Below are positions 5,612-51,991 of a DNA stretch of 51,991 nucleotides, one piece after another; position 1 is the first letter of the stretch; each line of letters begins with the position of its first letter. The position numbers were made by a program, and so were the translations under genes. The stretch lies in the NCBI RefSeq assembly GCF_029688865.1, contig NZ_JARUKV010000031.1, positions 1-51,991 of the forward strand, written 5' to 3'. The DNA comes from Natronococcus sp. A-GB7. Its GTDB lineage: Archaea > Halobacteriota > Halobacteria > Halobacteriales > Natrialbaceae. The notes under the pieces are model-generated. The model did no database searches. It was not told the DNA's origin and saw only the letters and a program-made list of their open reading frames with translations.

Positions 5612-5655
5612 AATCGATATTAGTCATTCTAAAGGTAATTGTTTCGGAGTGTTGA

Positions 5656-7095: not shown

Positions 7096-7121
7096 TTCTA
7101 ATTAGGACAGTTACAAACATT

Positions 7122-11166: not shown

Positions 11167-11190
11167 GCGAAGTAGGGTGGGATAGTTGAC
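11100..11190 (+). mobile_element. Right end of truncated IS1341-type element
   Basis: The sequence from the tnpB tail through 'GTGAGCGAAGTAGGGTGG' to 'AGTTGAC' at 11190 recurs, inverted, at 27893-27980 and in part at 32869-32900. In IS200/IS605-type elements this end encodes the omega-RNA scaffold, and the bases just outside it (from 11191) act as the guide. The left end of this copy is not visible. Confidence 0.65.
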
Positions 11191-11463
11191 ACGCAGACGA
11201 CAACATTGGTCTCACCGCACTCGCGGCCGCTGTCGAAGCAATAGGGAAGCGCTCGCTGAGAAATCCGAACGGTAGCTCGTCGTCATCAAGAGTACGGCGA
11301 TGGCAATGAATATCGCGGACGTCCTCGAGTCAGCCGTCCACCACGGCGCGAACGACAACGAGAACGTCGGGGTCGGGATGAACTCCGAGTTCCTCCGCGA
11401 GGGGAGTACCGTCTCTGGCTTCATGCACCCCGACACGGTTATCTACGGACCGCACTCGGAGTG
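11191..11463 (+). pseudogene. UDP-glucose/GDP-mannose dehydrogenase fragment
   Basis: The translation from 11193 reads 'DDNIGLTALAAAVEAIG', then (with a stop and small shifts) 'KSTAMAMNIADVLESAV', 'NENVGVGMNSEFLREGSTVS' and 'FMHPDTVIYGPHSE' before a stop at 11461. This is the central part of UDP-glucose 6-dehydrogenase (AglM/Ugd type): the 'vKSTv.pg' strand, then 'NPEFLREGsAv.DF..Pd.vv.G'. The N-terminal NAD-binding domain and the catalytic Cys domain are absent. The 5' side is cut precisely at the right end of the tnpB element and the 3' side runs into an epimerase fragment on the other strand. A second decayed copy lies at 50783-51345. Confidence 0.7.
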
Positions 11464-11794
11464 AGCGGCTTGAGCAGTGTGTAGTCCTCGGGCGTCGGTC
11501 ACGGGACCTCACCGTAGACCATCGACGTGTAGCGAGTTCGTGAACACCGACTTCCTCCACCGTCTCGAGGAAGGTGTAGGTCGTCTGCCTGTTCGCCTCG
11601 GATTGCTCGCGCGGTCGCTTGCTGTTGATCGCCTTCGAGACTGCCAGCCGGCAGACGAGGTCGAACTCGTCAGTGAGCCAGTGCTCGGTTCTGACCAAGA
11701 AATCATCAACGACGGTGACGTCAGCACCCGCTGCAGTCAGATAGTCCGTAAGGTGTGTTCCAATAAATTTCGTTCCACAAGTCACCAGTATGTG
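11464..11794 (-). pseudogene. NAD-dependent sugar epimerase fragment
   Basis: Minus-strand translation gives 'HILVTCGTKFIGTHLTDYL' and 'GADVTVVDDF' (a damaged form of the GxxGxxG Rossmann start and following strand of extended SDR epimerases), then 'TYTFLETVEEVGVHE', and in shifted frames 'SMVYGEVP' and 'PTPEDYTLLKPL', which match the S-S-S-V-Y-G-E and P-x-P-E-D-Y blocks. At least two frameshifts and a missing central section show it is dead. It abuts the UDP-glucose dehydrogenase fragment at 11463. Confidence 0.65.
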
Positions 11795-12104
11795 GGGTTT
11801 GAATGGGTGAAAACGAGTATCTGCTATGTCGAAATATTCGACTTTTGTAGGAACTTGAAAACGGGGAGTAACGGTATCGGCGGTACGATCGATGCTCTCT
11901 CTGGATTGGGTATTCAAATATCAAACGAATACGTGTGATCAATAGCTATTTGTGATTGGTTTAGAGAGTACTGCCTGTTGTGAGTGAGGTCGTGTCGCAT
12001 TGAACGCGACTCCAGAGACACGGGAAGATCCCAGCGCCAGCAGGCGCACAAATGATTACAGAGATGGAAACTAGCATTGACAGTTCAATCGGTGATCGGA
12101 ACGA

Positions 12105-17305: not shown

Positions 17306-17631
17306 ACCCCGACGGATTCTCACCCCGGTCACATTAACCGTGGTACCGAACGTACGGGCGGGACCGAGTGCCGAGCTGTGAAGTATCTGCTACCCGCGGT
17401 GGCTTTCGCTGGTAGGGAGTTCGTTGTTGATCGTGTCGCCGTCCCTCGGATCCGGTGAAATCGCCGTCCGAAGCCCCTCCGGGCACTCTACTTGGATCCA
17501 GCTATAAAACTGGGTACCCCCTGTCCGTTTGCGATTGGAGTCACCCTCTGCCAGTTAAACTCTCGATAGTCCTTTTTGCTGAAGAGTGGTCTGTGACCGC
17601 GGCTTTCTATGGTCAGATACCGGTCAGAACC
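17306..17631. other. Intergenic stretch upstream of hypF, nothing coding recognised
   Basis: GC-rich near hypF and turning AT-rich after 17600. It must contain the hypF promoter on the minus strand, but no convincing TATA element was located. Confidence 0.4.
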
Positions 17632-27892: not shown

Positions 27893-28060
27893 GTCAACTC
27901 CCCCACCCTACTTCGCTCACCCTGACGGGTTCGCTCGTGGAGGGTGGGGCTTGTCCATGAACTCGGCCTCGAACCCTTCCGGGTGGGCGGTAAATCCGCC
28001 ACTTGGTGTTCACGAGAGCAAGCTCTCGTGCAGCCCATCAGGTTTCTCCGAAACCTGAGG
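27893..28060 (-). ncRNA. Probable omega-RNA (right-end RNA) scaffold region of the TnpB element
   Basis: By analogy with characterised TnpB systems, the RNA would run on the minus strand from the tnpB 3' end through the right end into flanking DNA. Visible structure: nine-pair hairpins TCAGGTTTC/GAAACCTGA (28038-28058) and CACGAGAGC/GCTCTCGTG (28011-28030), a GGCGG/CCGCC pair (about 27987-28004) and the conserved end at 27893. The guide would begin at 27892 and read outward. Confidence 0.55.
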
Positions 28061-31221: not shown

Positions 31222-31490
31222 CCGGAGACCGGTCGTCGAGTACTAGGACTGGCGCACCAGCGGCTCGTACCACTCCCGATTCGTCTGAGTAGATGAGCTC
31301 CCGGACACCCTCGCGGATATCCCGCGTGGGCTCGTCGCCAAGCAGGGCGGTGGCCGTCGCGATGTCGGCGTGGGTGTGGGCGGCGTCCGCTTCGCCGGCT
31401 GCGGTGAACTTGAGGGCGAGGCGGGCGCGAGTTCGTCGCGGATGACCCCCGCGAGGGTCTGGGTGTCGATGGTGTCGGTGCGACCGGCGT
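31222..31490 (-). pseudogene. Epimerase 3' fragment (copy 3)
   Basis: Minus-strand codons read 'TDTIDTQTLAGVIRDELAPA', then after a frameshift 'EADAAHTHADIATATALLG', 'EPTRDIREGVRELI' and a corrupted tail. Each piece matches the intact epimerase C-terminus (TDNIDIETLAEVIRDELAPE, EADATHTHADISKANELLGY, EPTRDIREGVREFIDWY). Only the last third of the gene is represented, and it is frameshifted. Confidence 0.8.
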
Positions 31491-33035: not shown

Positions 33036-34022
33036 CTACGATTGGCGCACCAGCGGCTCGTACCACTCGCGGTTGGTCCGGTACCAGTCGATGAACTCCC
33101 GGACGCCCTCGCGGATATCCCGCGTGGGTTCGTAGCCCAGCAGCTCGTTGGCTTTCGAGATGTCGGCGTGGGTGTGGGTGGCGTCGGCCTCCCGGGCCTC
33201 GGTGTACTCGAGTTCGAGTTCGGGCGCGAGTTCGTCGCGGATCACCTCGGCGAGCGTCTCGATGTCGATGTTATCGGTGCTGCCGACGTTCAGAATCTCG
33301 CCGTCGGCCGAGTCGTCGCGGAGGAGCTGTTGGTTCACGTCGACGACGTCGTCGATATACGTGAAGTCCCGGGTCTGTTGGCCGTCGCCGTAGATGACCG
33401 GTGGTTCGCCGTTGAGACAGCGCGAGACGAAGTTGCTGATCGCCATATTGGGGCGCATCCGCGGGCCGTAGACGGTGAAGTAGCGCAGTGAGACCGTCGG
33501 CAGGCCGTACACCTCACTGTAGACGCGGGCGTACTGCTCGCCGGCGAGTTTGGAGACGCCGTAGGGACTAACCGGCGTCGTCGGGTGGGCCTCGTCGTAG
33601 GGGAGGTACTCGGGTTTGCCGTACACCGAGGAGGAACTCGCGAGGACGACGCGGTCGGTCTCGGAGTCGCGGGCGGCGTCGAGGACGTTCAGCGTCCCGT
33701 CGATGTTGATCGAGTTGGGCTTGCGCGGGTTGTCGACGCTGGTTCGGACGCCCGCCTGGGCGGCCTGGTGGTAGATCACGTCCGCGTCGCCGACGAGATC
33801 GGCGGTGAGGTCGTCGTCGCGGACGTCGCCGTTGACGAACTCGTACGTGCCGTCGGCGTCGGCCGCAGCCTCTTCGCAGATCTCGATGGTGTGTTGCTTG
33901 ATCCCCGTATCGTAGTACGGATCGAGGTTATCTAAGACCGTGACGTCGTGGCCATCGTGTGCGAAGGCCTCCGCGAGGTTGCCGCCGATGAATCCGGCGC
34001 CACCAGTCACTAATACATTCAT
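33036..34022 (-). CDS. NAD-dependent sugar epimerase/dehydratase (intact)
   Basis: 328 residues, extended SDR family. 'VLVTGGAGFIGGNLAEAF' gives the NAD-binding GxxGxxG at residues 7-13, 'VIYHQAAQAGVR' the next strand, 'ASSSSVYG' the catalytic Ser/Thr, and 'YGVSKLAGEQYARVY' the Tyr-x3-Lys pair. 'YFTVYGPRMRPNMAI' and 'PPVIYGDGQQTRDFTYIDDV' are substrate-side blocks of UDP-sugar 4-epimerases. Likely role: interconverting UDP-glucose/galactose or UDP-glucuronate/galacturonate for the glycan. The start at ATG 34022 directly precedes the Rossmann strand; the longer frame to 34265 is not coding. Four broken relatives lie in the window. Confidence 0.92.
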   Translation of the reverse strand: MNVLVTGGAGFIGGNLAEAFAHDGHDVTVLDNLDPYYDTGIKQHTIEICEEAAADADGTYEFVNGDVRDDDLTADLVGDADVIYHQAAQAGVRTSVDNPRKPNSINIDGTLNVLDAARDSETDRVVLASSSSVYGKPEYLPYDEAHPTTPVSPYGVSKLAGEQYARVYSEVYGLPTVSLRYFTVYGPRMRPNMAISNFVSRCLNGEPPVIYGDGQQTRDFTYIDDVVDVNQQLLRDDSADGEILNVGSTDNIDIETLAEVIRDELAPELELEYTEAREADATHTHADISKANELLGYEPTRDIREGVREFIDWYRTNREWYEPLVRQS

Positions 34023-34329
34023 TATCCGAGTGATGATATCCCACTCACAAAAGCATACCGTTCTGTCTGATTTCGACTCGTGGCAGTGCTGTTGTTCTCG
34101 TTTCGCCTGTGCTGAAGCGGGTGAGCGTGACTGCTCACCAGTGGTGGTGGCACGATTTACAGCGTCGCCTCGATACACCCGTGGTCGGAATAGCTGCGGT
34201 CCATGCAACCGAGCCAGCGGGTGGGCACCTGGTTGACGTTGCAGGGTAGTACGACTCCAGATCAATAAGCCGCCCTCGAGGTCTCCAGTGGTCCATCAGT
34301 TCGCAGGGGCCCACGCGCAGACGGTCAGT

Positions 34330-34545: not shown

Positions 34546-34813
34546 GGACGAGTCACGCCTCTTTCCACCTCTCTACGAAGCAGGCATCGCTGGACCGTCG
34601 ATATGTACGTTCCCAAGAATGGCAACAGATTGCGTCTAGGAGTACTCGTCACCACTACCCGTGTTCAGCTGATTGTGGCAGTCCCTCATATTCAATTAAA
34701 CTAGTCTACAAACAGAGGGGTACTACTATATATTAGAACGAAGAACACCAGAGACAACTAATGAATTGTCAGCTGAGAGTCTCTAGTCTGACGGGTAGGT
34801 GGCGAGACGCCAC

Positions 34814-35740
34814 ATGGGATCACGGAGGCGATCGTTCGTGAGCGGCGATCGCACGGCGTGTCTCACGCTCGATCTCGAGAACGACTGGTACTTCGACGAC
34901 CCCGAGTACGACCATCTCACGTTCGAGTACATCGACGACTACATCGCCCAAATGAACCGGCTCGACGTCCCCGTGACGTTTTTCGTCGTCGGGAAGACGA
35001 TCGAGCGCTACCCCGAGGTCATCGACAAGCTCGATACCGAACTGGACAGCGAGTTCCACCTCCACTCCTACCAACACGACACGTCGAAATCCTACGATTT
35101 CCGGACCGAGATCCGGAAGGGGAAGGAAGCCTTTGAATCTCACTTCGGCTACGAGCCCGAGGGGTATCGGGCTCCGCAGGGCAACATCGATCCCGCAGAG
35201 TTCGCGATTCTCGAAGCGGAGGGCTTCGACTTCGACTCGAGTATCTTTCCGTCGTTCCGACCCGGCATCTACAGCAACCTCGACAAACCGCTGGCACCGT
35301 ACTGTCCGGAGGGAACCGACGACCTCGTCGAAGTCCCGATCGCGGCGACGCCCGGCACGCGGATCCCGGTCTGCCAGAGCTACCTCAAGCTGCTGGGTCG
35401 CCCCTATCTCTCCTATCTCAAGTACGGACCGTTGCCGGACCCGCTGGTGTTCAACACGCATCTGCAGGACTTCTACCAGACTGACTCCCATGATCAGCTT
35501 GGACAGCCCAAGCAGTCGATCATGAAACGGAATCTGGACGGGTCGCTCGAGCTGTTCGCCGAGGCGGTCGAGCGGATTCGGGCTCGTGGGTATGAGTTTG
35601 GGACGATGACGGACGTCATCGAGGCGCACGCGCCGTCTTGTACCGAACTGACGTACGATTCCACCGAGGTCGCGTCTCGACGGAGTCCCAAACCGGCTTG
35701 CCAACAGCACGAGCAGCCGGAGACAACGAACGGTGACTGA
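34814..35740 (+). CDS. Polysaccharide deacetylase (NodB-like)
   Basis: About 308 residues. 'ACLTLDLENDWYF' is the first NodB motif with the metal and catalytic Asp positions (D-x-E-x-D type). 'VTFFVVGKTIERYPEVIDKL', 'FHLHSYQHD' (two metal His), 'YRAPQGNIDPAEFAILEAEG' (the R-x-P motif) and 'FDSSIFPSF' follow, and a C-terminal 'GYEFGTMTDVI' completes the barrel. It removes N- or O-acetyl groups from sugars, probably of the surface glycan or its lipid-linked precursor. It has no signal peptide, so it should act inside or be exported with a partner. A GTG at 34799 would add five residues; ATG 34814 is preferred. Confidence 0.88.
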   Translation: MGSRRRSFVSGDRTACLTLDLENDWYFDDPEYDHLTFEYIDDYIAQMNRLDVPVTFFVVGKTIERYPEVIDKLDTELDSEFHLHSYQHDTSKSYDFRTEIRKGKEAFESHFGYEPEGYRAPQGNIDPAEFAILEAEGFDFDSSIFPSFRPGIYSNLDKPLAPYCPEGTDDLVEVPIAATPGTRIPVCQSYLKLLGRPYLSYLKYGPLPDPLVFNTHLQDFYQTDSHDQLGQPKQSIMKRNLDGSLELFAEAVERIRARGYEFGTMTDVIEAHAPSCTELTYDSTEVASRRSPKPACQQHEQPETTNGD

Positions 35741-35806: not shown

Positions 35807-36340
35807 CTAGGACTGTCGAACCAACGGTTCGTACCACTCGCGGTTGGCCTGGTACCAGTCGATAAACTCCCGGACGCCCTCGCGGATGTCCCGTGTGGGT
35901 TCGTAGCCCAGCAGCTCGTTCGCTTTTTCGATGTCGGCGTGGGTGTGTGCAGCGTCGGCCTCCCGTACCTCGGTGTACTCGAGTTCGAGCTCTGGGGCGA
36001 GTTCGTCGCGGATCACTTCGGCGAGCGTCTCGATATCGATGGTGTCGGTGCTGCCGACGTTCATGATCTCACCATCCGCCGCGTCGTCGGTGAGGAGCGT
36101 GCGGTTCACGTCGACGACGTCGTCGATGTAGGTGAACTCACGCGTCTGCTGGCCGTCGCCGTAGATCACTGGTGGCTCGCCGTTCAGGCACCGCGAGACG
36201 AAGTTCGAGATTGCCATGTTCGGGCGCATCCGCGGACCATAGACGGTAAAGTAGCGTAATGAGACCGTCGGGAGGCCGTACATCTCGCTGTAGACGCGCG
36301 CGTACTGTTCGCGGAGACAATCGAACTGATCCAGGGTCAT
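35807..36340 (-). pseudogene. N-terminally truncated epimerase (copy 2)
   Basis: The frame is open for 177 residues and from 'YARVYSEMYGLPTVSLRYF' to the final 'WYEPLVRQS' it is nearly identical to the intact epimerase at 33036. It lacks the first 160 or so residues: the NAD-binding GxxGxxG, the SSSVYG block and the catalytic Tyr of YxxxK. The 'MTLDQFDCLRE' ahead of the match is unrelated. The DNA is also highly similar, so this looks like a recent duplication or recombination leftover. It could still be transcribed but cannot be an active epimerase. Confidence 0.85.
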
Positions 36341-36485
36341 GGCAACTCGTTCGAGACAATGACGGCTACCCTGGAGGCGAACGTGTTACTCGGTCTAGAC
36401 GCGAAACAACTGAGCCGCCATCCGTACAAAAGACCGAACGTATTTCGTCAAAAGTATATCCTACTGACTCAACTGATGATTGGTA

Positions 36486-37721
36486 ATGCGCGGACAGTTT
36501 CGAACTGGGAAGATCGACCAATCTCAGGTACTTTCCCTTTTGAACGAATCGTTCGGAGATTGGGGCGACGAGGAACTCTTCCAGTGGAAGTACGACGACT
36601 ACCCCGGATACGACCCTGACGAGCACGCGTTCTCGATTACTGTCGGCGACGAATTGGCTGCATTTCGTCGCCTCTTTCGGCGAGAGTTCGTCGTTGATGG
36701 GGAAACGATCCCGATCCACATCTACGGCGACACAGCAGTCGCGCCGAAGTACCGGAGTCAAGGACTGTACTCCGAGCTCTATGAACGCACGAGAGCGTAC
36801 AGCGAACAAAGCGACGCACAATACATTGGTGCGTTCAATCGCAAGGGAAATCTCACGTTCGACGCGAACCTCGAGCGAGGCTGGTCATATCGGACGCTTC
36901 CGCTGCAGCTACGGATTCTCTCTCCGAAAGCCGTCCTCGAGACCTATGCTTCGCTCATTACTGACGGTCTCCCCCTGATCGATTCGGTTGCAGAGGCAGT
37001 CGGTCACCGATTTCACGTTGGGACCAGCGACGGTCCGCTAACGCTTGACCAGATCGTCGCAACCGGGAACGATTTCAACGGGCGGTCTGTAGGACCTGCT
37101 CTTTCCAATACAGCAGTAACTGACTACGTCGAAGCTGTGAGTACAGACGGAAGTACAATCCGAGACCTTCTTACTACGTCTGCTCGGCTTGCTGCTAACG
37201 GCGATATTTCGATAGGCCGATCATCCAGTTCAACCACACTCACCTACGAGGATACTCCTGGCGAGGTCGACGTTACGGTGAGAGAGGCAGTCTCCAAAGC
37301 CGACCTCGAGCCGTTAACAACACTTTCTGGGGATGCTCCTTCGTTTCGACGAACGCGTGAAGACATCGAGCATCTCACTCGGTATCCGAACTCGGATCTT
37401 GTTCTTGCCCGTCGGAATGGGGCACTCGTTGGCTACGCCATCGTGGTTCCGTACGAGAACGATGGCGTCATAGAAGGTCGTGTTCTCGAAATGCAGACAA
37501 GAGACGAGGATCGAGCGGTATTCAACGCACTGATTAGACAGATCGAGAGTCGTGCACTCGAGCGCGAATTCGATTTACTTTTAATTCTCTCCGAAAAGGA
37601 AATTGACAATCAATGGGCAGCAGTCGATCAACAGGTCCTCGTCTGGGACGAATTAGAGCAAGCGGACAAAAAACCATTACAGCGCGGAAATATCCACGTC
37701 AGTTTCTATGACATTGTTTAA
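36486..37721 (+). CDS. GNAT-type N-acetyltransferase
   Basis: About 411 residues. The N-terminal half contains 'LLNESFGDWGDEELFQWKY', 'RLFRREFVVDGETIPIHIYG' and 'TAVAPKYRSQGLYSELYERT', the last being the acetyl-CoA binding V-x-P-x-x-R-x-x-G motif of GNAT enzymes, followed by 'YIGAFNRKGNL'. The C-terminal part ('NSDLVLARRNGALVGYAIVV') looks like a second GNAT half, giving a tandem arrangement. Likely acylates an amino sugar in the glycan pathway. A TTG at 36480 is in frame; ATG 36486 is preferred. It overlaps the next gene by 14 bases, so the two are coupled. Confidence 0.8.
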   Translation: MRGQFRTGKIDQSQVLSLLNESFGDWGDEELFQWKYDDYPGYDPDEHAFSITVGDELAAFRRLFRREFVVDGETIPIHIYGDTAVAPKYRSQGLYSELYERTRAYSEQSDAQYIGAFNRKGNLTFDANLERGWSYRTLPLQLRILSPKAVLETYASLITDGLPLIDSVAEAVGHRFHVGTSDGPLTLDQIVATGNDFNGRSVGPALSNTAVTDYVEAVSTDGSTIRDLLTTSARLAANGDISIGRSSSSTTLTYEDTPGEVDVTVREAVSKADLEPLTTLSGDAPSFRRTREDIEHLTRYPNSDLVLARRNGALVGYAIVVPYENDGVIEGRVLEMQTRDEDRAVFNALIRQIESRALEREFDLLLILSEKEIDNQWAAVDQQVLVWDELEQADKKPLQRGNIHVSFYDIV

Positions 37722-38784
37722 TCGGACAACGGGTACCCCTCCGGAAGATCGTCCGTTGAAAGTGATCTTCAGTATTCAGCATCCGGCTCACGTTCACCTC
37801 TTTCGAAACGCGATCACCGATCTCAGGGAGCAAGGTGAGAAGGTGGAAGTGTACGCTCGGGAGAAAGAGATCGTCAGCGACCTTCTGGAACAGTACGATA
37901 TCGATCACGAGATTCTTGCTCCAAAGACCGAGTCCGTCCTCGATCTGGCGAAGGTCGAACTGTTATACGAGTATCGACTGACGAAACGAGCTCGAGCGTT
38001 CGATCCCGACGTCATGGTCGCAATGGGTGGCGTCGCGATATCTCGACCGGGACTGCTGACGAGAGCCAAACGACTCGTCTTCACGGATACTGAGCACGCT
38101 ACCTTGCAGAATGCACTTGCGTTTCCGTTCGCGACGAAGATCTGTACCCCGGAGTGCTATCAGGATACGATCGGAAAGAAGCAGGTGTACTACCGCGGCT
38201 ACCACGAACTGGCATACCTTCACCCTAACCGATTCGAGCCGGACCCATCGGTTCTAGCAGAGGCTGATCTCGACCATGACGAACCGTTCGTCATTTTGCG
38301 GTTAGTCTCGTGGGATGCCTTGCACGACGTTGGTGACAGTGGTTTCGAGGATATCGTCGACGTCGTCCACGCGCTCGAGGAGACCGGCACAACGGTACGA
38401 ATCACATCCGAAGCGGATCTCCCAACCGAGATCGAGGATCGGCAGGTCTCGATCCCTCCGAATCGAATTCACGACCTGATGGCGTTTGCGGATCTCTACG
38501 TGGGTGAGAGTGCGACGATGGCAACCGAAAGTGCAGTGCTTGGAACTCCGGCAGTGTTCGTCTCTTCGAGTCGACGGGGGTACACTGACGAACTTGAGGA
38601 AAAGTACGGTCTGGTCTTCAACTACTCGGGGCAGGACCGACACGAACGCGGGCTGCAACGCGCTCTGAGTATCCTCGAATCAACCGATCCGGAGCGTTGG
38701 AAGCACCGTCGGGAAGAGATGCTCAGCGAGAAGGTCGATACGACGGACGTGATTACGGGGATGGTTCGAAAGATGGCTCAGTAA
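37708..38784 (+). CDS. DUF354-family GT-B fold protein
   Basis: 358 residues. 'KVIFSIQHPAHVHLFRNAIT', 'HEILAPKTESVLDLAKVELL', 'DPDVMVAMGGVAISRPGLLT', 'VFTDTEHATLQNALAFPFAT' and 'LMAFADLYVGESATMATESA' are the blocks of DUF354. This archaeal family resembles UDP-N-acetylglucosamine 2-epimerase and GT-B glycosyltransferases, with a nucleotide-sugar site in the C-terminal half (G-E-S-A-T-M...E-S-A). Its exact reaction is unknown. It is translationally coupled to the GNAT gene, which suggests both act on the same amino sugar. Its 3' end overlaps the convergent toroid gene by 32 bases. Confidence 0.85.
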   Translation: MTLFNRTTGTPPEDRPLKVIFSIQHPAHVHLFRNAITDLREQGEKVEVYAREKEIVSDLLEQYDIDHEILAPKTESVLDLAKVELLYEYRLTKRARAFDPDVMVAMGGVAISRPGLLTRAKRLVFTDTEHATLQNALAFPFATKICTPECYQDTIGKKQVYYRGYHELAYLHPNRFEPDPSVLAEADLDHDEPFVILRLVSWDALHDVGDSGFEDIVDVVHALEETGTTVRITSEADLPTEIEDRQVSIPPNRIHDLMAFADLYVGESATMATESAVLGTPAVFVSSSRRGYTDELEEKYGLVFNYSGQDRHERGLQRALSILESTDPERWKHRREEMLSEKVDTTDVITGMVRKMAQ

Positions 38785-41291: not shown

Positions 41292-42008
41292 ATGAGTTCC
41301 GTCCGATCACTTTGGGGGAATGCCCGGACTATTCCTCTAACCATTCTAAATGATCTAGAATTACTAGAGAACATCTCACGATATGCAGATCCATTTCAAG
41401 TTGGATGGGTTAATACTAGTGAAATAGAATATATTACGGGTAGAGAAGGACCTAATAAATTCGCATGGGCAGATGCTGGTTTAGTTTTAGAAGGAGACTG
41501 GGATCAGACAACTGTGAGATTTGAAGAGAATTCAGAGTGGTATGAGGCCTTAGTCGATCGGTTTGTCCATGGTAAAGAGTGGGAAAATATAAGCGCTATA
41601 CAGAAGCGTATCGAGATGGTGGAAAAGGGAGAGACAGTTATGGATGGTAGAGAATCTATTCAGGGTGTTTATGACCGGTGTCGTTTATTAGATAAGATAT
41701 TTAAATATATGTCTAACAAGGGGTATAAAGAACAACCGATACTGGAAAAAGAAGGCCGTGGAAACCCGTATAATAAGATATTGCCATATAAAAATAGATA
41801 TCATGAGATAGCTGTAGATGTCGGTCGGAATGGCGAACTACTTTTTGTAGACGGTAAACACCGTCTCTCTATGGCTAAAATATTAGATATTGATCGTGTG
41901 CCTGTAAGGATAGTTGTGAGGCATAAGGAATTTATGAAAAAGGATATAGATCTCAATATGGATCCTCCTGTGACTAATTATGGCCATCCCTTATTCCCAA
42001 CACGGTGA
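41292..42008 (+). CDS. ParB-like domain protein, glycan-island family (copy 2)
   Basis: 238 residues. It shares with the protein at 4859 'YADPFQVGWVNTSEIEY' (compare YQVHWIDPDNI), 'LEGDWDQTT', 'KGYKEQPILEKEGRG' and the C-terminal core 'VDVGRNGELLFVDGKHRLSM' plus 'AKILDIDRVPVRIVVRH'. The V-D-G-K-H-R-L segment is the ParB/sulfiredoxin-like nucleotide-binding feature. It starts 41 bases after the GT4 stop on the same strand, so it is probably co-transcribed with it. The AT-rich coding sequence and lack of similarity at the DNA level to copy 1 argue for separate acquisition rather than local duplication. Function unknown. Confidence 0.72.
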   Translation: MSSVRSLWGNARTIPLTILNDLELLENISRYADPFQVGWVNTSEIEYITGREGPNKFAWADAGLVLEGDWDQTTVRFEENSEWYEALVDRFVHGKEWENISAIQKRIEMVEKGETVMDGRESIQGVYDRCRLLDKIFKYMSNKGYKEQPILEKEGRGNPYNKILPYKNRYHEIAVDVGRNGELLFVDGKHRLSMAKILDIDRVPVRIVVRHKEFMKKDIDLNMDPPVTNYGHPLFPTR

Positions 42009-42462: not shown

Positions 42463-43389
42463 ATGGAGATAACACATAAAGCACAAAAGGCTTATAGAAA
42501 AGGTGGGGTACGACATTTATTCAACGAGATCTGGGAAAGGACAGTATTTCGAAGTAAAATCTCATATATCTTGAAACAAGCCATAGGAAAAGAACAACAT
42601 GAGAGACTGGGGATGGCACCCCTAGTTGGCTATTGGCCTGATTTTGAAAATCCTAGATCTTTTAATGAAAAAATAGCTTATAGGAAGTTAAAAACGAATA
42701 AGTCTTGCTTTTCTACCCTTTCCGATAAATACCTTGTTCGAGAATATGTAAAAGAAAGAGTAGGCGAAGAATATCTCACTGATTTATATCATGTAACAGA
42801 CAATCCAGAAACAATACCTTTTGAGGAATTGCCTGACAAGTTTGTAATAAAAGCAAATCACAGCTCGGGTAGGAACAGGATCGTAACTAATAAATCCGAC
42901 ATAGATACTACTGAGATAAAATATGAATGTCGGCAATGGTTATCTGAAGATTTTGATGGATTAAGAGAATATTGGTATACTGAGATAAAACCGAGAATCA
43001 CCATCGAAGAATTTCTTGATGATGATCTTTATGAAGTACCACTAGATTACAAATTTTTTGTATTCGACGGAGAAGTGGAGTATGTCCAGGTTGATTATGG
43101 TCGGTTTGGTGCACATACAAGAAGTATATATGATAATAATTGGGAAGAGCAACCATTCGAGTATATCTATCCGAAAGCACCTCCGATTGATAAGCCAGAT
43201 TCATTAGAGGAAATGATTGAGGTTGCTGAGTCTTTAGCAGACAATCTTAATTTTGTGCGTGTTGATCTATTTGATGTCGAAGGTGGTGGAATTTATTTTG
43301 GCGAGATGACGTTTGCTCCCGAAGGCGGAACCGGTCGGTTCCAGACCAAAGAGTATGATTTCGCAGTAGGATCTCACTGGAGTATTTAA
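42463..43389 (+). CDS. TupA-like ATP-grasp protein
   Basis: 308 residues. 'YWPDFENPRSFNEKIAYRKL' and 'LSDKYLVREYVKERVGEEYL' open the family, 'FVIKANHSSGRNRIV' is the ATP-binding Lys region, 'ITIEEFLDDDLYEVPLDYKF' and 'FVFDGEVEYVQVDYGR' the central ATP-grasp fold, and 'FVRVDLFDVEGGGIYFGEMT' with 'FAPEGGTGRF' the metal-binding acidic residues. TupA-like proteins are named after a teichuronopeptide synthesis gene and are thought to ligate amino acids or related acids to cell-surface polymers. Here a glycan-decorating ligase is inferred. ATG at 42463. An AT-rich gene bracketed by IS6 remnants on both sides. Confidence 0.8.
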   Translation: MEITHKAQKAYRKGGVRHLFNEIWERTVFRSKISYILKQAIGKEQHERLGMAPLVGYWPDFENPRSFNEKIAYRKLKTNKSCFSTLSDKYLVREYVKERVGEEYLTDLYHVTDNPETIPFEELPDKFVIKANHSSGRNRIVTNKSDIDTTEIKYECRQWLSEDFDGLREYWYTEIKPRITIEEFLDDDLYEVPLDYKFFVFDGEVEYVQVDYGRFGAHTRSIYDNNWEEQPFEYIYPKAPPIDKPDSLEEMIEVAESLADNLNFVRVDLFDVEGGGIYFGEMTFAPEGGTGRFQTKEYDFAVGSHWSI

Positions 43390-43850
43390 ATTCATTGGCT
43401 ATTGGTTTAAAACACCCCCCGACGAACCGCGAGGGTGAAGTCCTCGAGATCGTCGAGTTTGACATGGGGACACACTAGGTGAACTTTGAAACCGAACTGC
43501 TGGGCGACGAGGCATACGAGTTTGTCGCCGACCGACCCAGCCAGCGATTCGACCGCGGTCGGTTAACCGACTCTGACTACCCGATCAACGGCAGGTCGGT
43601 GGGGGACCGGCGGCACTGCGGTGCCTACAACGACGGTTATCGGTCTGCTTTGAGCAGATCATCGTCGTCCAGAGCCTTGTTTACGGAACGTCCTGCGGGC
43701 GGACTATTTGGACCTGCCGAATCACGGGACTCGAGGGGTTGATCTCCGACTGCGATCCCGCAGAGACGATCGACGTTGCCAACTCCGCCGCGATCGATCA
43801 CGAGGATAACGCCAGTGCCGAGATTAAGACTACCTCGATTGCTGTGTGAA
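43390..43850 (+). other. Decayed, unrecognised GC-rich stretch
   Basis: Sharp change from AT-rich to GC-rich DNA. Pieces look coding: 'VNFETELLGDEAYEFVADRP' near 43479, and in another frame 'TIWTCRITGLEGLISDCDPA' to a stop near 43849. They do not form one frame and I cannot name the family. It is probably a pseudogene left from a replaced gene. Confidence 0.3.
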
Positions 43851-43852
43851 GC

Positions 43853-43977
43853 GCTGTGTTGAATAGCGCCTCGCAACCCACAGTGAAACCAAGTCGGTTT
43901 TGAGATCACTTCCGTTAGCGTCGAGTACGTCGGCCCAGATTATGACGATCCGCGACGACACCGCTATTCAACAGAGC
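43853..43977. mobile_element. MITE-like inverted-repeat element (125 bases)
   Basis: GCTGTGTTGAATAGCG (43853-43868) and CGCTATTCAACAGAGC (43962-43977) are inverted repeats matching at 15 of 16 positions, enclosing 93 bases without a gene. Short ends like CTCTGTTGAATAGC are, from memory, found on some haloarchaeal insertion sequences. It may be a miniature or internally deleted element. Confidence 0.35.
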
Positions 43978-44185
43978 AATGTGAAGATTGACCATAAGAT
44001 CATTCTACCCGACGAGCGGATCACTTGGAACACGATGCCCAAGTTCCACGAAGCCGAATACATTGTGATCCGCGGGGCGACAGCACTATCCCTGATACGG
44101 CCGACCAGTTGCTTTGCTGTAGCGTCTTCTTCAGGATTGTGATAGCAGCCGGCACATCAAGCATGTTAAGCGTGAGGGACTAACA

Positions 44186-44292
44186 CTCGTTCTTTTAAAT
44201 TCCCCTCGTAGTTCTCGCTGAGAAGGTCTGTGAGCATTAGTCCAATTCAATCCCACGACCCACTCATTTCTTAAACCATTTGAGTAGACACA
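44186..44292 (-). pseudogene. IS6-family transposase remnant (5' end)
   Basis: In minus orientation the IS-end 'ATGGTTTAAGAAATGAGTGG' is followed by ATG at 44237 and 'MLTDLLSENYEGNLKER', almost the expected N-terminus of haloarchaeal IS6 transposases; it then loses frame. This is the best-preserved start of the four copies in the window and lets the others be aligned. Confidence 0.7.
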
Positions 44293-44297
44293 AACCA

Positions 44298-45068
44298 TTA
44301 ATTATCAATACCATTTAGATCTGGGTGCTCAATTGAAAGATTTCCTTCTAGAGCTTCTTCACGCTTTTTTTGCCATCCACTATGGCGGATTATAACATGA
44401 ACTGGGATCTTATCAATATTAAGAACATTAGCTATTGCAAGACGGTGCCACCCTCCTCCGCCAAAAACAAACTGGCCATTACGGCCAACATTTAAACAAA
44501 CTTCGTCTAATGCGGCTCGCCGTGGATCGTTATTTGTGAGTTCCCGTTGGGAGTAGTAGCCATTTTGCTTTATTGACTTGTATAATTCATCGATGTGTCT
44601 ATATCGTTCTTTGAGGTCCCTTTCAGTATAACACCCATCAATACTTCCATATTCTTCAATATAATCCGCGAGTTCGTCATATATCCCTGTTTCTTCCCAT
44701 GACTTATCTTCCTTATATCGCTCAAGAACAGCACGATACTTTGGGGACGTTTTGATGTGTGGACAATTTTTTTCTAAGTCCCAATCTCCACCCACTATCT
44801 TTCCAGTATCTGTATATTTACTAACGGATAGGATCCCGTTTGAATGGTATGATAGACCACACAATCTAACGTTGGCTGGATCAACCATTATTGGTGTATA
44901 AGGGTCTGGAATTTCGTCAAATCCTTTGACAAATTTATTGTATAATAAATTGTATCTAATATGGTGTCTATATAAATAGTGCCTTTGAAGTGATTTATTC
45001 ACGGCCTTAATTATATAAGAAGGGTCATGTGTAGCTAACAGGTTTTTGATTAATTTTTTTCTAGCCAT
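44298..45068 (-). CDS. ParB-like domain protein, glycan-island family (copy 3, variant motif)
   Basis: 256 residues. It keeps the family order: 'PYTPIMVDPANVRLCGLSYH', 'GKIVGGDWD', 'DKSWEETGIYDELADYIEE', 'ELYKSIKQNGYYSQRELT', and the C-terminal 'VCLNVGRNGQFVFGGGGWHR' followed by 'LAIANVLNIDKIPVHVIIRH'. The D-G-K-H-R-L of the other two copies is replaced by G-G-G-W-H-R-L, so the acidic residue is lost while His-Arg stays. It follows the membrane protein gene on the same strand with only five bases between, so they form an operon. Very AT-rich. Function unknown. Confidence 0.72.
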   Translation of the reverse strand: MARKKLIKNLLATHDPSYIIKAVNKSLQRHYLYRHHIRYNLLYNKFVKGFDEIPDPYTPIMVDPANVRLCGLSYHSNGILSVSKYTDTGKIVGGDWDLEKNCPHIKTSPKYRAVLERYKEDKSWEETGIYDELADYIEEYGSIDGCYTERDLKERYRHIDELYKSIKQNGYYSQRELTNNDPRRAALDEVCLNVGRNGQFVFGGGGWHRLAIANVLNIDKIPVHVIIRHSGWQKKREEALEGNLSIEHPDLNGIDN

Positions 45069-45073
45069 AAAAT

Positions 45074-46900
45074 CTAAATCACGCTTTGCTGTTCTGAGGA
45101 TTGTACGAAATATAGGTCGTGGCCAGCATTTGAATGGATTCTTTGAATATAAGGTGTATTGTCTAGATAGTTAAAGTCGTTGTGATCGAATCTTAAACCA
45201 TTATACACAACAGGATCTCGTATTCGGTCTGCTTCAGTAATTGCTAAATATGTACTTTCATTATAGTGGTTCTCTAGATCGTGGTGGGCAAAATGATTCG
45301 GAACGCCACCTGGGTCAACATCAGAATGATAATAATCGCTGCTATCTCTACCGCTTGATCCAAGGATCGCATCACCATACCGATCAACACTTGAACGAAC
45401 ATGATCGAAATTAGCATCATCAGTATACTCAAATGATATTTCAAAACCAGCTAATTGGGATTCCGTCACATGCTCCGAATCTTGGAAAACATAAGGGGAA
45501 GGATGAATGACTAGAACACTCATTAACATAAATATCACAATGAGAATAGATAGAGTGCTTTTAAGAGATTTGCTTGACGTGTAGTGGAGAACATCTCCTA
45601 TCGCAACAGAACCGATAATCGAGACTATAACAAGAAGGAAACCGACATACCGAACCGCTTGATTTGCATCATTGATGATTAGATATGCAACAGTCACCAA
45701 AAAGACTGGCACACCGCCAATAAGGAGCCCTGTTCCAATAGAAATTCCAAGCGGGTTGTGGCTTTTCTTCTTATTGGAGTGATTTGTATAGGTACCCCAA
45801 AGAAGGTATAGCACAGAAGAGACCCCAAATACAGCCCCGGCCAAAAACAGTTTTATGAATATCTCTTCTACACTTCCCCCCACTGCTGCTAACGAGGCGC
45901 CCCGCTCGGCAGCTCCACCGGATCCGGCGGAGGCAGTTCCCGAGAATATATAATATGCAATCCTTCCTAATGAGCTTTCAAACTGGTCACTATATCCAAT
46001 CCAAACCCAGGCAACTGTCGCTAAAAAGAAGGAGAAAATAAGAGGACTAGGCTTATTTTCAATCATTGGGTTTCGCACATAGCTATTGTCTAGTATATAC
46101 AGCGATATAGCCAATAACAGACTAGTCATAGCCAGCATAGCAGCCATTTGTGGATGAAATAACAAGAGGGACAGACAAACGAGGGAAAACAACAAGAAGT
46201 TCTTCTTATTTCCGCCTTTTATTGCTTTTAAGAGAAAAAAGAGAGCAGCAGGAGATAAAAACAACGCAATGTTTCGAGGTGCTGGTTGTAGATGGGTAGA
46301 TATGTGGTCAATCGGGATATATAAAAGCCCGGATAGAAATCCAACCGCTAACACGCTATAATTATCGCTAATAGTTCTAGCACAAAGGCCAATAAACAAT
46401 GGAAATAGTGTCGCTATGACTAATGAGAGGATAGAGTAAGAATGGAAAAGATCCAACGAACCAATTACACTGATGGTGATAGACAGAACATGAGACAAAG
46501 GATAGAACAGATCGAGAGGCGCGGTTAGACCGTCTTTTATGTCCATTGCGATTCCTACATGGCTCAACATATCGCCCTCTCCAACATGCCTATATCCGCG
46601 AATTAATGGCAAGGCAACAACAGTGACCACTGTGAAAAAACTAGTGAATAATAGCAAGGATTCGTGGTTGCGACCTATGGAAAAAACACTGCTAAGTGAA
46701 GCGAGTAACATTGATAAAGAGGTTAGTAGTGGAAGTAAAATTAAAGCCCAGACGACGGTTGGGGTTTTCGAATAAATTGACACTTCATATCCTTGTGCAG
46801 GTGCATTGTATGCAACTAGAACTCCGACAAAAATAGACAAATAACAAAATGAGAGAATGAGATGAAGATACCGTTTGGTGACTATAGAAGTTGAACTCAT
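45074..46900 (-). CDS. Large polytopic membrane protein, GT-C/polymerase-like
   Basis: About 608 residues with some 13-14 hydrophobic segments up to residue 480, then a hydrophilic tail rich in Asp, His and Tyr ('YYHSDVDPGGVPNHFAHHDL'). The loop 'YRHVGEGDMLSHVGIAMD' before the third or fourth helix carries acidic residues where GT-C enzymes have their catalytic Asp, and 'HISTHLQPAPRNIALFL' follows. A role as GT-C glycosyltransferase or Wzy-type polymerase acting on the lipid-linked glycan outside the membrane is inferred. The start at ATG 46900 precedes a basic segment and first helix; in-frame ATGs at 46942 and 46981 would add non-membrane residues. It is transcribed ahead of the ParB-like gene. 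Confidence 0.65.
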   Translation of the reverse strand: MSSTSIVTKRYLHLILSFCYLSIFVGVLVAYNAPAQGYEVSIYSKTPTVVWALILLPLLTSLSMLLASLSSVFSIGRNHESLLLFTSFFTVVTVVALPLIRGYRHVGEGDMLSHVGIAMDIKDGLTAPLDLFYPLSHVLSITISVIGSLDLFHSYSILSLVIATLFPLFIGLCARTISDNYSVLAVGFLSGLLYIPIDHISTHLQPAPRNIALFLSPAALFFLLKAIKGGNKKNFLLFSLVCLSLLLFHPQMAAMLAMTSLLLAISLYILDNSYVRNPMIENKPSPLIFSFFLATVAWVWIGYSDQFESSLGRIAYYIFSGTASAGSGGAAERGASLAAVGGSVEEIFIKLFLAGAVFGVSSVLYLLWGTYTNHSNKKKSHNPLGISIGTGLLIGGVPVFLVTVAYLIINDANQAVRYVGFLLVIVSIIGSVAIGDVLHYTSSKSLKSTLSILIVIFMLMSVLVIHPSPYVFQDSEHVTESQLAGFEISFEYTDDANFDHVRSSVDRYGDAILGSSGRDSSDYYHSDVDPGGVPNHFAHHDLENHYNESTYLAITEADRIRDPVVYNGLRFDHNDFNYLDNTPYIQRIHSNAGHDLYFVQSSEQQSVI

Positions 46901-47109
46901 TCTTTTCAAGGTTGTATCTCCATCACATATATGGTTTTTCATCCAAGTTATCCAGATCACTCCGGTCCTGACGCTGTCCACTCGTTTTCCTAAGATATTT
47001 CTGAATCTCCATGTTTTACTAGAATCTTCTATTAACTTATCTAAAACCGACTGCTCTTCAGAATTAGTTCAATCATTAGTGTGAAATCTCTGATATGGGG
47101 ACGATTCGA

Positions 47110-47128
47110 AGAATATATAGATTTAAAG
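47110..47128 (+). promoter_or_regulatory. Probable TATA box of the gene at 47143
   Basis: 'GAATATATAGATTTAAA' lies 16-33 bases before the ATG, with the AATATATA core about 26 bases upstream. This fits a leaderless archaeal transcript. Confidence 0.45.
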
Positions 47129-47142
47129 CATAGTTATGATGT

Positions 47143-48255
47143 ATGAGTGAAATCAAGACACAATATAAAAAGGGAGGACTACCCTTGGTAGCTGTAAAAG
47201 CGGCAGAGGGGTTCTTTTCTCAGGTGGGAAGCATAAGCTCCGTAATGAAACTGATAGGGAAAGAAATAAAATATCGAGATCGATATCCGCTTTCGATGAC
47301 GGATCGCGTGGCAGCCTGGAGAAATGGATTTTCGTCTAAAACATATGCTTCCCTCTCACTAATGGACAGAGACCCTAATGATTATTTGTCGGATATTGAA
47401 CAGAGAAATCTTGTCCGCCCAGGTGTAAATGAAGAATATGTTGACATAATAGAAAACAAAGCTGCCTTTCATAAATCAACATCTCCTTACTCAAATAATT
47501 TACCTGTCGTATATGGATCTATTAATAATGGTGATTACTTATCGGTTGAGGATAAGTCTCAGAATATGTTTTCCACTCTTCACAAAGAAGGCAATTTAAT
47601 AATAAAACCTGCAGCTGGGAAGGCGGGTAGGCGTGTGCACCGTTTGTCATATGATGGCTCAAGCTACTATGTGAACGGTGATAAAAAAAGAAAAGAAGCA
47701 ATCGAGAAGTGGATAAGTAGCATTGACAACTATGTTGTAGTCGAATTCATTGACCAGGACCAATACTCTGATAATATATTCCCCGACTCTGTTAATACGA
47801 TTAGAATATTAACTATTAGAGACCCCGATACAAAAAACTTCTTTATAGGCCGGGCAATACACCGTTTTGGCAGTCAGTCATCTATCCCAACGGATAACTG
47901 GTCAAGGGGAGGGTATGCTGCAGCAGTTGAAATCGAAACTGGTGAAATAGGGCGTCTTTGGAAGTATTCTAGAGAGAAAGGATTAGAATCATATAAAAAG
48001 CATCCAGAAACAGACCAGCCAGTTACGGGTACGAAAGTGCCTGATTGGGAGAAAATCAAGGAATCTGTATTAGAAATGGCGGAAATACATAGAGAAAACC
48101 CATATGTTGGATGGGACGTGGTTTTGTCACGAAATGGTCCTAAGATCATTGAGGGTAATTGTGCACCAGGAACAATCACCCTTCAGATTGAGAATGGACT
48201 TTTGTCTGAAAATAGAATACACCGGTTCTTTAATAGTGTTAGTGGACAGGAATGA
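47143..48255 (+). CDS. Sugar-transfer-associated ATP-grasp protein
   Basis: 370 residues. 'NLIIKPAAGKAGRRVHRLSY' is the ATP-binding Lys loop, 'NYVVVEFIDQDQYSDNIFPD' and 'VNTIRILTIRDPDTKNFFIG' the middle sheet, 'DNWSRGGYAAAVEIETGEIG' the Gly-rich region, and 'YVGWDVVLSRNGPKIIEGNC' the acidic metal-binding end (W-D-V.....E-G-N). These blocks define the ATP-grasp family found next to sugar-transfer genes, thought to form amide or ester bonds between carboxylates and sugar amines. With the TupA-like protein at 42463 it makes a second ligase in this island. The start at 47143 fits the TATA box. AT-rich gene, divergent from the membrane protein operon. Confidence 0.85.
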   Translation: MSEIKTQYKKGGLPLVAVKAAEGFFSQVGSISSVMKLIGKEIKYRDRYPLSMTDRVAAWRNGFSSKTYASLSLMDRDPNDYLSDIEQRNLVRPGVNEEYVDIIENKAAFHKSTSPYSNNLPVVYGSINNGDYLSVEDKSQNMFSTLHKEGNLIIKPAAGKAGRRVHRLSYDGSSYYVNGDKKRKEAIEKWISSIDNYVVVEFIDQDQYSDNIFPDSVNTIRILTIRDPDTKNFFIGRAIHRFGSQSSIPTDNWSRGGYAAAVEIETGEIGRLWKYSREKGLESYKKHPETDQPVTGTKVPDWEKIKESVLEMAEIHRENPYVGWDVVLSRNGPKIIEGNCAPGTITLQIENGLLSENRIHRFFNSVSGQE

Positions 48256-49115: not shown

Positions 49116-50579
49116 CTATATTAACTTTGAAGCTATGTACTTTATATCTAATACACCTATGATAGATGAAAGGGCTGCCCAAACCAAGGTCCCAGTTGCA
49201 ACAACTAGTAAGAGCGTAACCCAGCCGTGAATAAACTCGAGTAGCAGAAAGACTACCACAGACATGACTGCAGTAGTAAAAGCTATCGACAGTACATTTT
49301 TTAGCAAGTATCTGTACCTTATATTGAATTCACTAGTTATTATATAGAAATTGAAAGCGACATAAATAGAATGGGTAATAACCGTAGCGATTGCAGCACC
49401 AACAACACCAATAGTGGGAATAAGGACGATATTGAGGAGAACATTGCTTCCTGAAGAGATTCCCTTAGCAACTGCACGTGATCTTGCCCTTCCCAGAAAG
49501 TCCAATCCGTTACCTGTGATTTTCGAAATTGCCTCTAATACGATATAGATACTTAATACTTGAATGACCGGTACTGCACCGGTATAGTCTGCCCCAAAAA
49601 TGAGTCCAATAAGTGGTTCCGCAACAAGTGCTAATCCTGCCGCTGCAGGTATATAGAGTAGTAACGTGTGAGTCAAGGCGGTTTCATAGATCTTAGATGC
49701 ACGGGAAATATTCCCCGACGATTTCTCCGCTCCAAATGTAGGAGAAAGGGTAAAACCAAGAGCAGAGACAGGAGTTTCAACGAATTCAACAGCTTGCTTT
49801 CCGATGACATAGTATCCTACGTGTACTGGACTAAGGAAAAATCCAACAAGAAGTGTATCAACTCTCTTATCTAATACTGTCGCTGTATGAGTTGCGGTTA
49901 TAGGAATAGAATATTCCATAATTCGCCGTCGAAGACCTGGTTCAGTTTCTCCAGAATCATCTGATCTATAATAATTCACATAAATCACATAAAGACCAAA
50001 CAAAAACGCTAGTATGGCTGAAAGAATATAGCCAACGAGAGCACCTATTACACCATATCCAAGAACCAGAATAGCGATTACTATGAACAACCTGGATACT
50101 TTATGTAGAGCATGTATAGATGATGCGTTCTTTATGTCTTCAAGTCCTTGGAAAAACTTCCGGAAATCATAAACAAGAACAGAAAAAATAACATAAGGAG
50201 TTCCAAGTAAGAGTAATAGAGCTATTTCTGGTTCTCCAAGTAAGTCTGCAATTATCTCACGGGCGAATATCAGAGCCCCAATTATAATAAATAATGTTGC
50301 CAGATTTAGTGTAATTGCTATTCTGATAATAGCGGGGATTTGATCTGGCTGGCTTTCCTTATATTCAGAAAGGTATCGGGCTGCGGACTTCGCAATCCCT
50401 AATTTCGCACCAATTTTCAATACTGCAAAAACTGAGAGAGTAAGGAAAAATAAACCATAGCTATTTGGATCAAGAAAACGAGCGAGAAGAACTGATATGA
50501 GCCCACCAGAAATCGTTGTGAGTATTTGACCTAAAAATTCAACTTTGAATCGTGAACTTATACGTGAAGATATACCCAT
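49116..50579 (-). CDS. Wzx-like oligosaccharide flippase (second copy)
   Basis: 487 residues, the same length as the flippase at 3227, with matching landmarks: 'LLARFLDPNSYGLFFLTLSV', 'GAKLGIAKSAARYLSEYKES', 'DSGETEPGLRRRIMEYSIPI', 'TGNGLDFLGRARSRAVAKGI' and 'VVGAAIATVITHSIYVAFNF'. About 12-14 membrane helices. It should translocate lipid-linked glycan across the membrane. Codon use is AT-rich, unlike the GC-rich core. The last codons overlap no neighbour; the IS1595 remnant ends about 45 bases downstream. Start at ATG 50579, followed by 'GISSRISSRFKVEFLGQ', the expected amphipathic beginning. Confidence 0.87.
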   Translation of the reverse strand: MGISSRISSRFKVEFLGQILTTISGGLISVLLARFLDPNSYGLFFLTLSVFAVLKIGAKLGIAKSAARYLSEYKESQPDQIPAIIRIAITLNLATLFIIIGALIFAREIIADLLGEPEIALLLLLGTPYVIFSVLVYDFRKFFQGLEDIKNASSIHALHKVSRLFIVIAILVLGYGVIGALVGYILSAILAFLFGLYVIYVNYYRSDDSGETEPGLRRRIMEYSIPITATHTATVLDKRVDTLLVGFFLSPVHVGYYVIGKQAVEFVETPVSALGFTLSPTFGAEKSSGNISRASKIYETALTHTLLLYIPAAAGLALVAEPLIGLIFGADYTGAVPVIQVLSIYIVLEAISKITGNGLDFLGRARSRAVAKGISSGSNVLLNIVLIPTIGVVGAAIATVITHSIYVAFNFYIITSEFNIRYRYLLKNVLSIAFTTAVMSVVVFLLLEFIHGWVTLLLVVATGTLVWAALSSIIGVLDIKYIASKLI

Positions 50580-50782
50580 TATGTGTTAATGAATTCTGAG
50601 ACAGTCATATATTTTATACTATTTTAAGAATTTTATATTACTTGTGCTGCGAAAGGATATCCTTATTTCCACTCTCAGATTGGGTAGTCTCTCGTTAAAA
50701 ACGTATCGACTCAATTGTATATCTCCATTATCAGCAGCGGTTATGTTGGAACGGCGGTTGCAGCCTGTTTCGCAGAGTTCAG

Positions 50783-51345
50783 TCACGGCGATCGATGTCG
50801 TCGAAAACGTCTTCAACACGCTCAATGAAGGGAAAGCGCCGATCGACTCGAGGTAACCACTTCCTATGACGCGGTGCCCCAGTGGACGTCACGTTCCTCG
50901 CGACCGGCATACCCCCGAACGAAGTCGGCAGCATCAACCTCACCGCACCCGAGGCAGCCGTCGAGGCGACAGGCGATCCCCTCGCTGACAAGTCTGAACG
51001 ACACCTCGTCGCCACCAAGAGTACCGTGACGCCAATGAGTCTCGGGGGCGTCCTCGAGCCGGCAGTCAAACGAGGCGTACCGGTAACGAGAACGTCGAAG
51101 TCGGCATGAATCCCGAGTTCTTCTGCGAGGGGAGTGCGGTCTCGGACTTCGTGCACCCGAGTAAGGTCGTCTACGGGACTCGCTCCTAGTGGGCAACCGA
51201 ACGGCTACACGAGGTGTTCGAACCGCTGCTCGAGCAACACGACGCCGACGTCGTCGAGACCGATCCGCGGCGGCATCGATGACCGAGTACGCCAACAACG
51301 CCTTCCTTGCCTCAAAGATTAATCTCGTCAACGACCTCGGGAACA
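50783..51345 (+). pseudogene. UDP-glucose dehydrogenase, decayed, interrupted by ISH3-type remnant
   Basis: Pieces of the enzyme occur in correct order in three frames. First 'VTAIDVVENVFNTLNEGKAP' (Rossmann strand and N-x-G-x-x-P), then 'DVTFLATGIPPNEVGSINLT' and 'SERHLVATKSTVTP'. Then 'NVEVGMNPEFFCEGSAVSDF' with 'VHPSKVVYG', 'ERLHEVFEPLLEQHDADVVE', and finally 'TEYANNAFLASKINLVNDLG' at about 51279-51340. Stops and frameshifts separate them and the catalytic Cys domain is missing. UDP-glucose dehydrogenase (AglM) makes UDP-glucuronate for haloarchaeal glycans. The sequence breaks into transposase-derived codons at about 51345. Confidence 0.78.
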
Positions 51346-51991
51346 TCTTTCGAGCCGGAACGGCTCGAACAAGTCGTCAACACGCTCGTTCACCGGGGTA
51401 TTGCCGAGCTGCTTTCTGAGCAGGTGGAAATTTACGCAGACCTTTACCTGCGGCTCTACTATGGTAACGAAGACGACACAGAGCCTCTACCATTCGGAAG
51501 CGAAGCATGGAAACTATACACTGGCGGTGTCGCCGTCTTCGAAACGGCACACCGCCAGCAGTGTCTTCGCTGAGTTTTTGATGTTCTCGACGGTCTCGAT
51601 ACCGAGGCCAGGCCGTCTCCCTTGACTGCGAATTCTACGATAGCAAGTACTCACGCTGCTTCTGGCGTACAACTACGCTTATATCAGCCTGATTACCCGT
51701 TGGTGCAAGGCGATTGAGCAGGACTCTCTGAAGACTGGAGTCGCGTCAGTTAGGAAAACTCAGCGGTCACAGCTGAACCATCAAGTTTCCCGTCTACATC
51801 GACTGCCCGTACCTGAATGGTCAATACGACCACACGAGGTGACGCGTCACGGCTACGCCGCTGACGCGCCGTTCATCGAGACTCTACACGATGCGCGATA
51901 CCACTACAGCAAATATTTCAGTATCGAGTCGAGCTCTCGCTTGTCCGAACAAGCGATAGCGACGATAACGACACGAGACTTGACGGTAAGA
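51345..51991 (+). pseudogene. ISH3-family transposase remnant (runs off the window)
   Basis: Translation pieces in three frames follow an ISH3-type transposase: 'QVEIYADLYLRLYYGNEDDT', 'LYHSEAKHG', 'SLDCEFYDSKY', 'AYNYAYISLITRWCKAIEQD', 'VTRHGYAADAPFIETLHDAR' and 'HYSKYFSIESSSRLSEQAIA'. Intact relatives read CADLHLRPYYGDEDDTE, LDREFYDSKC, AHNYAYVMPIVRWG and KRFGIEASYRL. Several internal deletions and stops make it inactive. It lacks the first part of the gene and continues to the end of the window. Confidence 0.72.

Follow-up and report, generated by a model that had tools for sequence, protein, structure and literature searches.

Two different ATP-grasp ligases, both intact, lie in one glycan island of the haloarchaeon Natronococcus sp. 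A-GB7, and both are good candidates for enzymes that decorate an archaeal surface sugar with amide-linked groups. The window analysed here, 51,991 nucleotides long, is an entire contig of the 4.88-Mb genome (Table 1). An earlier reading made from the DNA letters alone (the sequence-only reading) had placed a TupA-like ATP-grasp at 42463 and a sugar-transfer-associated ATP-grasp, here called ST, at 47143, and both genes were found at exactly these coordinates. We propose that TupA is a uronate amidoligase and that ST is a second carboxylate-amine ligase on the same glycan class, a proposal to which, as a whole, we give an even chance. Since relatives of TupA have been proven to amidate uronates, its presence in haloarchaeal glycan islands provides concrete candidate genes for archaeal amide chemistry; how far the finding reaches is restricted, as few haloarchaea carry a TupA gene.

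Table 1. Positions of the two ligases and of accompanying features in the window
Positions	Strand	Feature	Basis and remarks
4859-5611		Third ParB-like ORF	
11222..11470	+	UDP-sugar dehydrogenase fragment	tblastn 1.4e-9
34799..35740	+	Polysaccharide deacetylase	PF01522 2.7e-13; homologue near ST in Natrarchaeobius (L128)
36480..37721	+	GNAT acetyltransferase	PF00583/PF13527; homologues adjoin nearest ST relatives (L128, L129)
37708..38784	+	DUF354 protein	PF04007 5.1e-16; homologues adjoin ST in L128, L129
39988..41250	+	GT4 glycosyltransferase	PF00534 2.1e-37
41292..42008	+	ParB-like (GxHR motif) protein	Alignments; just upstream of TupA
42463..43389	+	Predicted TupA-type ATP-grasp amidoligase	PF14305 ATPgrasp_TupA; 308 aa, full length
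43390..44297		Spacer, 908 bp, likely a remnant	GC 0.54 vs 0.37-0.38 either side; intact gene absent
44298..45068	-	ParB-like (GxHR motif) protein	5 bp from membrane protein, same direction
45074..46981	-	Large membrane protein, GT-C-like/PTPS_related-like	PF10131 1.4e-5, below cutoff; homologues in other glycan islands
47143..48255	+	Predicted sugar-transfer-associated ATP-grasp ligase (ST)	PF14397, RimK/Ddl-like fold; 370 aa, full length
49116..50579	-	Polysaccharide flippase	PF01943 2.4e-27
50715..51356	+	Broken UDP-sugar dehydrogenase, several frames	tblastn with L023 dehydrogenase

A TupA-type ligase with characterised relatives

The TupA protein matches PF14305 at 4.8e-48 over profile positions 1-238 of 241, and thus belongs to the family over its whole length; its gene is the only TupA gene of the genome. 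An alignment of homologues shows the conserved residues K89, K130, E182/E183, D195, K197, R266, D268, E281 and T283 to be present, and five of these positions (K89, K130, E182/E183, D268 and E281), kept across the haloarchaeal copies, are by analogy of the ATP/metal-site type. TupA is rare in haloarchaea: it was found in 10 of 391 genomes sampled across the class and in 11 of 392 sampled across the order, which combine to 12 genomes with 13 loci, and these loci sit amid glycosyltransferases and flippases. In one of them (L158, genome G429, 9604-12771) TupA adjoins both a ParB-like gene and a gene for a poly-gamma-glutamate capsule protein (PGA_cap, PF09587 7e-51). The plasmid relatives listed come from bacteria, share no more than 39% identity and often carry the annotation 'ATP-grasp fold amidoligase'. 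A phage origin was considered and rejected, as only four phage records were returned and none combined at least 80% protein coverage with an annotation.

In Campylobacter jejuni capsules, the TupA-like domains of Cj1438C and HS19.11C amidate glucuronic acid at its C6 carboxylate with (S)-serinol-phosphate as the capsule chain grows; Cj1438C also accepts ethanolamine-phosphate, and a phosphatase strips the phosphate after amidation (PMC11800379, PMC13276843). They share with the window protein, by family rather than by direct alignment, a TupA-like ATP-grasp, a glycan locus and a (here predicted) sugar-carboxylate amide ligation. The Campylobacter domains form one polypeptide with a GT2 transferase and work alongside a serinol-phosphate supply and a phosphatase, whereas the window TupA is a stand-alone protein, and among the window proteins scanned no amine-supplying gene or Cj1435-type phosphatase was recognised. 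As for genes that make uronates, which would lie in the same locus in a system of the Cj1438C kind, the window contains only broken dehydrogenases. The genome holds six intact UDP-sugar dehydrogenases elsewhere, so the host can make uronates.

We infer from these relatives that the archaeal enzymes amidate as they do. The TupA protein would be a cytoplasmic ATP-dependent amidoligase. Its target would be a uronic acid at the end where a surface glycan is being extended; it would convert the C6 carboxylate of this sugar into an acyl phosphate and then join it to a small amine, which may be an amino acid or an amino alcohol, possibly phosphorylated; the amide would be made before the glycan is flipped to the outside.

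A second ligase with a RimK/Ddl-like fold

ST matches PF14397 (ATPgrasp_ST) at 1.2e-37 over profile positions 5-266 of 278, with a match to PF14398 that is also above its cutoff, and is thus in one Pfam family with the 'sugar-transfer associated ATP-grasp' proteins of haloarchaea and bacteria. The conserved residues K106, K155, G159/G162, E201, R221, R241, D251, N252, D325, E337 and N339 are present. Sequence searches of the PDB with the single ST protein, as with the single TupA protein, gave chance matches only. An AlphaFold2 model of ST is confident (pLDDT 90.8); in a Foldseek search of the PDB its best match was the RimK structure 5zct (1.3e-7), followed by Ddl, PsnB, LysX and an L-amino acid ligase. 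These nearest solved folds are all carboxylate-amine ligases, although the query-normalised TM-scores are about 0.4-0.5, the identities 10-16% and the substrates different, and ST carries an extra N-terminal helical region. An inositol-pyrophosphate kinase stands lower in the list, and a kinase-like reaction for ST is therefore conceivable, though less likely. As a RimK alpha-L-glutamate ligase ST scores below the family cutoff, reaching 44.9 bits with TIGR02291 where 314 are required; its near-matches in NCBIfam, rimK_rel_E_lig (7e-12) and MptN (6.5e-5), are glutamate ligases, and both fall far under the cutoff. The name of PF14397 gives no reaction, because the literature searched turned up no member that has been characterised.

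Amidation is our best guess for both ligases, since TupA-like domains have been published to make amides and the nearest folds of ST are carboxylate-amine ligases. ST would then be a second carboxylate-amine ligase, RimK/Ddl-like in fold, and would most likely work on the glycan class that TupA modifies, with another amine or carboxylate.

ST is commoner than TupA, being found in 90 of 391 genomes at E<=1e-15, and the genome of A-GB7 holds three copies. The closest named relative, found in a collection search with a four-row ST alignment as query, comes from Natrarchaeobius chitinivorans (Natrialbaceae; 46% identity). Tandem arrays of 2-4 paralogues occur in haloarchaea (L069, L072, L075, L076, L086), Truepera, Balneolaceae and Gemmatimonadales. 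Full-length paralogues stand in tandem or clustered in L069 (6297-13001), L075 (7526-12809), L076 (7362-12642), L133 and L149, a set that covers haloarchaeal glycan islands as well as Truepera and Balneolaceae contigs.

The arrays bring up a teichuronopeptide-like alternative, in which TupA would prime on a uronate and ST would extend from there a short peptide or poly-amino-acid side chain one residue at a time, tandem paralogues adding successive ones. The nearest solved fold of ST, a poly-alpha-glutamate synthetase, and the adjoining PGA_cap gene in L158 are in keeping with it. The founder that gave the TupA family its name acts in Bacillus halodurans on teichuronopeptide, an acidic polymer of glucuronate and poly-gamma-glutamate (PMC8153356), which belongs to a Gram-positive wall; near the window genes no poly-gamma-glutamate synthase genes were seen. 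Only one ST is present in the window, and a homologue search found no PGA_cap there; PGA_cap occurs at just one of the 12 other TupA loci, and those TupA-like domains that have been characterised attach a single amino alcohol and no peptide. We regard a peptide chain as quite improbable.

The sequence-only reading had envisaged an acidic glycan carrying peptidyl or acyl groups. An amide is the likeliest link, given the proven TupA-like relatives; the peptidyl form is unproven and, like the acyl form, has no specific support, and nothing points to acyl groups. That reading also knew of no description of such an amide-decorated polymer in haloarchaea. Amide-linked constituents are already on record: PMC4187196 cites N-glycyl-glucosamine bridges in the wall of Halococcus morrhuae and a glutaminylglycan in that of Natronococcus occultus. 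The novelty would thus lie in the enzymes rather than in the existence of amide links, as we found no description of the enzyme for haloarchaeal wall amides. Methanococcal N-glycans carry threonine on mannuronic acid, and the attaching enzyme had not been identified as of a 2010 review (PMC2952790). The wider idea, that haloarchaeal glycan uronates bear amide-linked amino compounds added by TupA and ST on the cytoplasmic side, and that these two families are the missing archaeal amide enzymes, seems to us unlikely at present.

Proximity of the two ligases

The two ligase genes belong to different transcription units. Between them lie the 908-bp spacer and then the ParB-like and membrane protein genes on the opposite strand, so the ligases do not form one operon. 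We compared the ~20-kb surroundings of TupA, of ST and of 40 control flippase loci; as several tests were made on small counts, all p values are nominal, and one TupA contig spans 6 kb only. The window locus is ascertained and was omitted from the counts over 12 TupA loci. ST occurs near 2 of these 12 and near none of the 40 control loci (one-sided p=0.05, or 0.012 with the window included). In genomes that bear ST, measured by coordinates, an ST lies within 10 kb of 3 of 6 TupA loci (p=0.02, or 0.09 with the window excluded), compared with 3 of about 41 flippases.

This closeness argues against the view that a mosaic, IS-rich glycan island gathered the ligases by chance accretion as unrelated cargo, each of them serving a different glycan now or in the past. 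The same holds for genome G045, in which the two genes are adjacent, and for a shared N-terminal tract: the motif YRxGGhxxL occurs in 5 of 13 TupA and 4 of 95 ST proteins and in 1 of 481 background ORFs, and a tract of the YRxGG type is found on both window ligases (42463-42510 and 47143-47185) and on both ligases of G045. The tract was considered as an amphipathic helix, but its hydrophobic moments were unremarkable, and it is therefore reported as a sequence feature alone. Several observations favour accretion nonetheless. In G045, and in G268 where the genes lie about 8 kb apart, the STs beside TupA come from clades other than that of the window ST and the pairing is not an operon; the pairing was therefore assembled separately, or it reflects accretion. 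The nearest relatives of the window ST (in Natrarchaeobius, a soda-lake MAG, Haloglomus and Natrialba SSL1) have no TupA close by, and decayed genes and insertion-sequence debris surround the ligases.

Two other kinds of gene that had been read together with the ligases are no commoner beside them than at control loci, which also suits accretion. The comparison placed ParB-like genes near 2 of 12 TupA and 3 of 20 ST loci, as against 3 of 40 control flippases, and uronate dehydrogenases near 3 of 10 TupA and 10 of 40 control loci; neither is enriched. We consider chance accretion a possible explanation, if a somewhat doubtful one, and retain the reading in which both ligases would act on one glycan, bearing a uronate and a small amine.

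ParB-like proteins and the membrane protein

As had been described, the ligases flank a ParB-like gene and a GT-C-like membrane protein gene. The positions are right; the ParB fold found no confirmation, and the match of the membrane protein to PF10131 is sub-threshold. The ParB-like label rests on a GxHR motif. The family keeps an invariant G..H/NR motif and counts 12 matches in the genome, several of them short; it has no Pfam match. With an 8-row profile the best natural PDB chain was SbnI (E 0.6, over the DGxHR motif), which is not significant, and a fold prediction made from three window paralogues reached a pLDDT of 44, so that the model was discarded.

SerK and SbnI are serine kinases with the ParB fold (PMC5120207, PMC12704722). 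The ParB-like proteins might accordingly be kinases of this kind that supply TupA with a phosphorylated amine, for example O-phosphoserine, comparable to the serinol-phosphate of Campylobacter; in the window as well as in L019 and L158, TupA has a ParB-like gene within 1.5 kb. With a deeper, 20-row profile, however, the SbnI match weakened to E 3.3, and neither the discarded model nor the lack of enrichment near either ligase speaks for such a role. At two sites in the genome (45074/44298 in the window, and L162) a ParB-like gene directly follows a membrane protein gene instead, which suggests a partner other than the ligases. We therefore judge a kinase role highly improbable.

The ParB-like family has multiplied in haloarchaeal glycan islands (the window, L162, L163 and L019, the last with five ORFs, two of them fragments). 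A PHP-like protein adjoins ParB-like genes in two islands of the A-GB7 genome, at 4859-6813 of the window, where both genes share a strand with 44 bp between them, and at 4790-18729 of L162. The sequence-only reading had called this window gene (5656-6813) a PHP protein, for which Pfam gives no match.

Genomic partners of ST

A grouping of GNAT, DUF354 and ST looks better supported than one of TupA, ParB-like and ST, because homologues of the GNAT and DUF354 genes recur beside ST in L128 and L129 and no homologue of the window GNAT was found at any of the 40 control flippase loci. In L129 (Natrialba SSL1) the ST, split over two ORFs, lies by a dehydrogenase, an oxidoreductase, an aminotransferase, an acetyltransferase and a 2-epimerase, a set that by eye resembles a diacetamido-uronate pathway. 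AsnB-like genes were found near 5 of 20 ST and 3 of 40 control loci (nominal p=0.07), a result that is not relied on. A locus conserved in Natrialbaceae (L136 and L140, from Natrialba asiatica and Haloterrigena salina, at about 2.6-16 kb) contains ST together with a flippase, a DPM1-like transferase and two proteins that resemble an aspartoacylase and, in divergent form, an asparagine synthase.

Composition and decay of the island

Of the other genes named in the sequence-only reading, the pyruvyl transferase (PF04230 6.4e-28) and the cis-prenyltransferase (PF01255 9.7e-68) were both recovered, and the decayed UDP-sugar dehydrogenases proved in tblastn to be two broken genes. Its kinases could be followed in part: there are P-loop matches, above a cutoff for 6927-7850, and the other kinase calls fall below cutoff.

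Duplication and decay are visible elsewhere in the window. An NDP-sugar epimerase gene (33036-34265) is intact, with a truncated second copy, 92% identical, at 35807-36340 and a shorter third remnant near 31246-31485. A shortened TnpB-like ORF (10318-11166) shares about 85% identity with a full-length counterpart (28038-29228). A long ORF at 14912-17332 resembles by eye HypF, the hydrogenase maturation carbamoyltransferase, which one would not expect in a glycan island.
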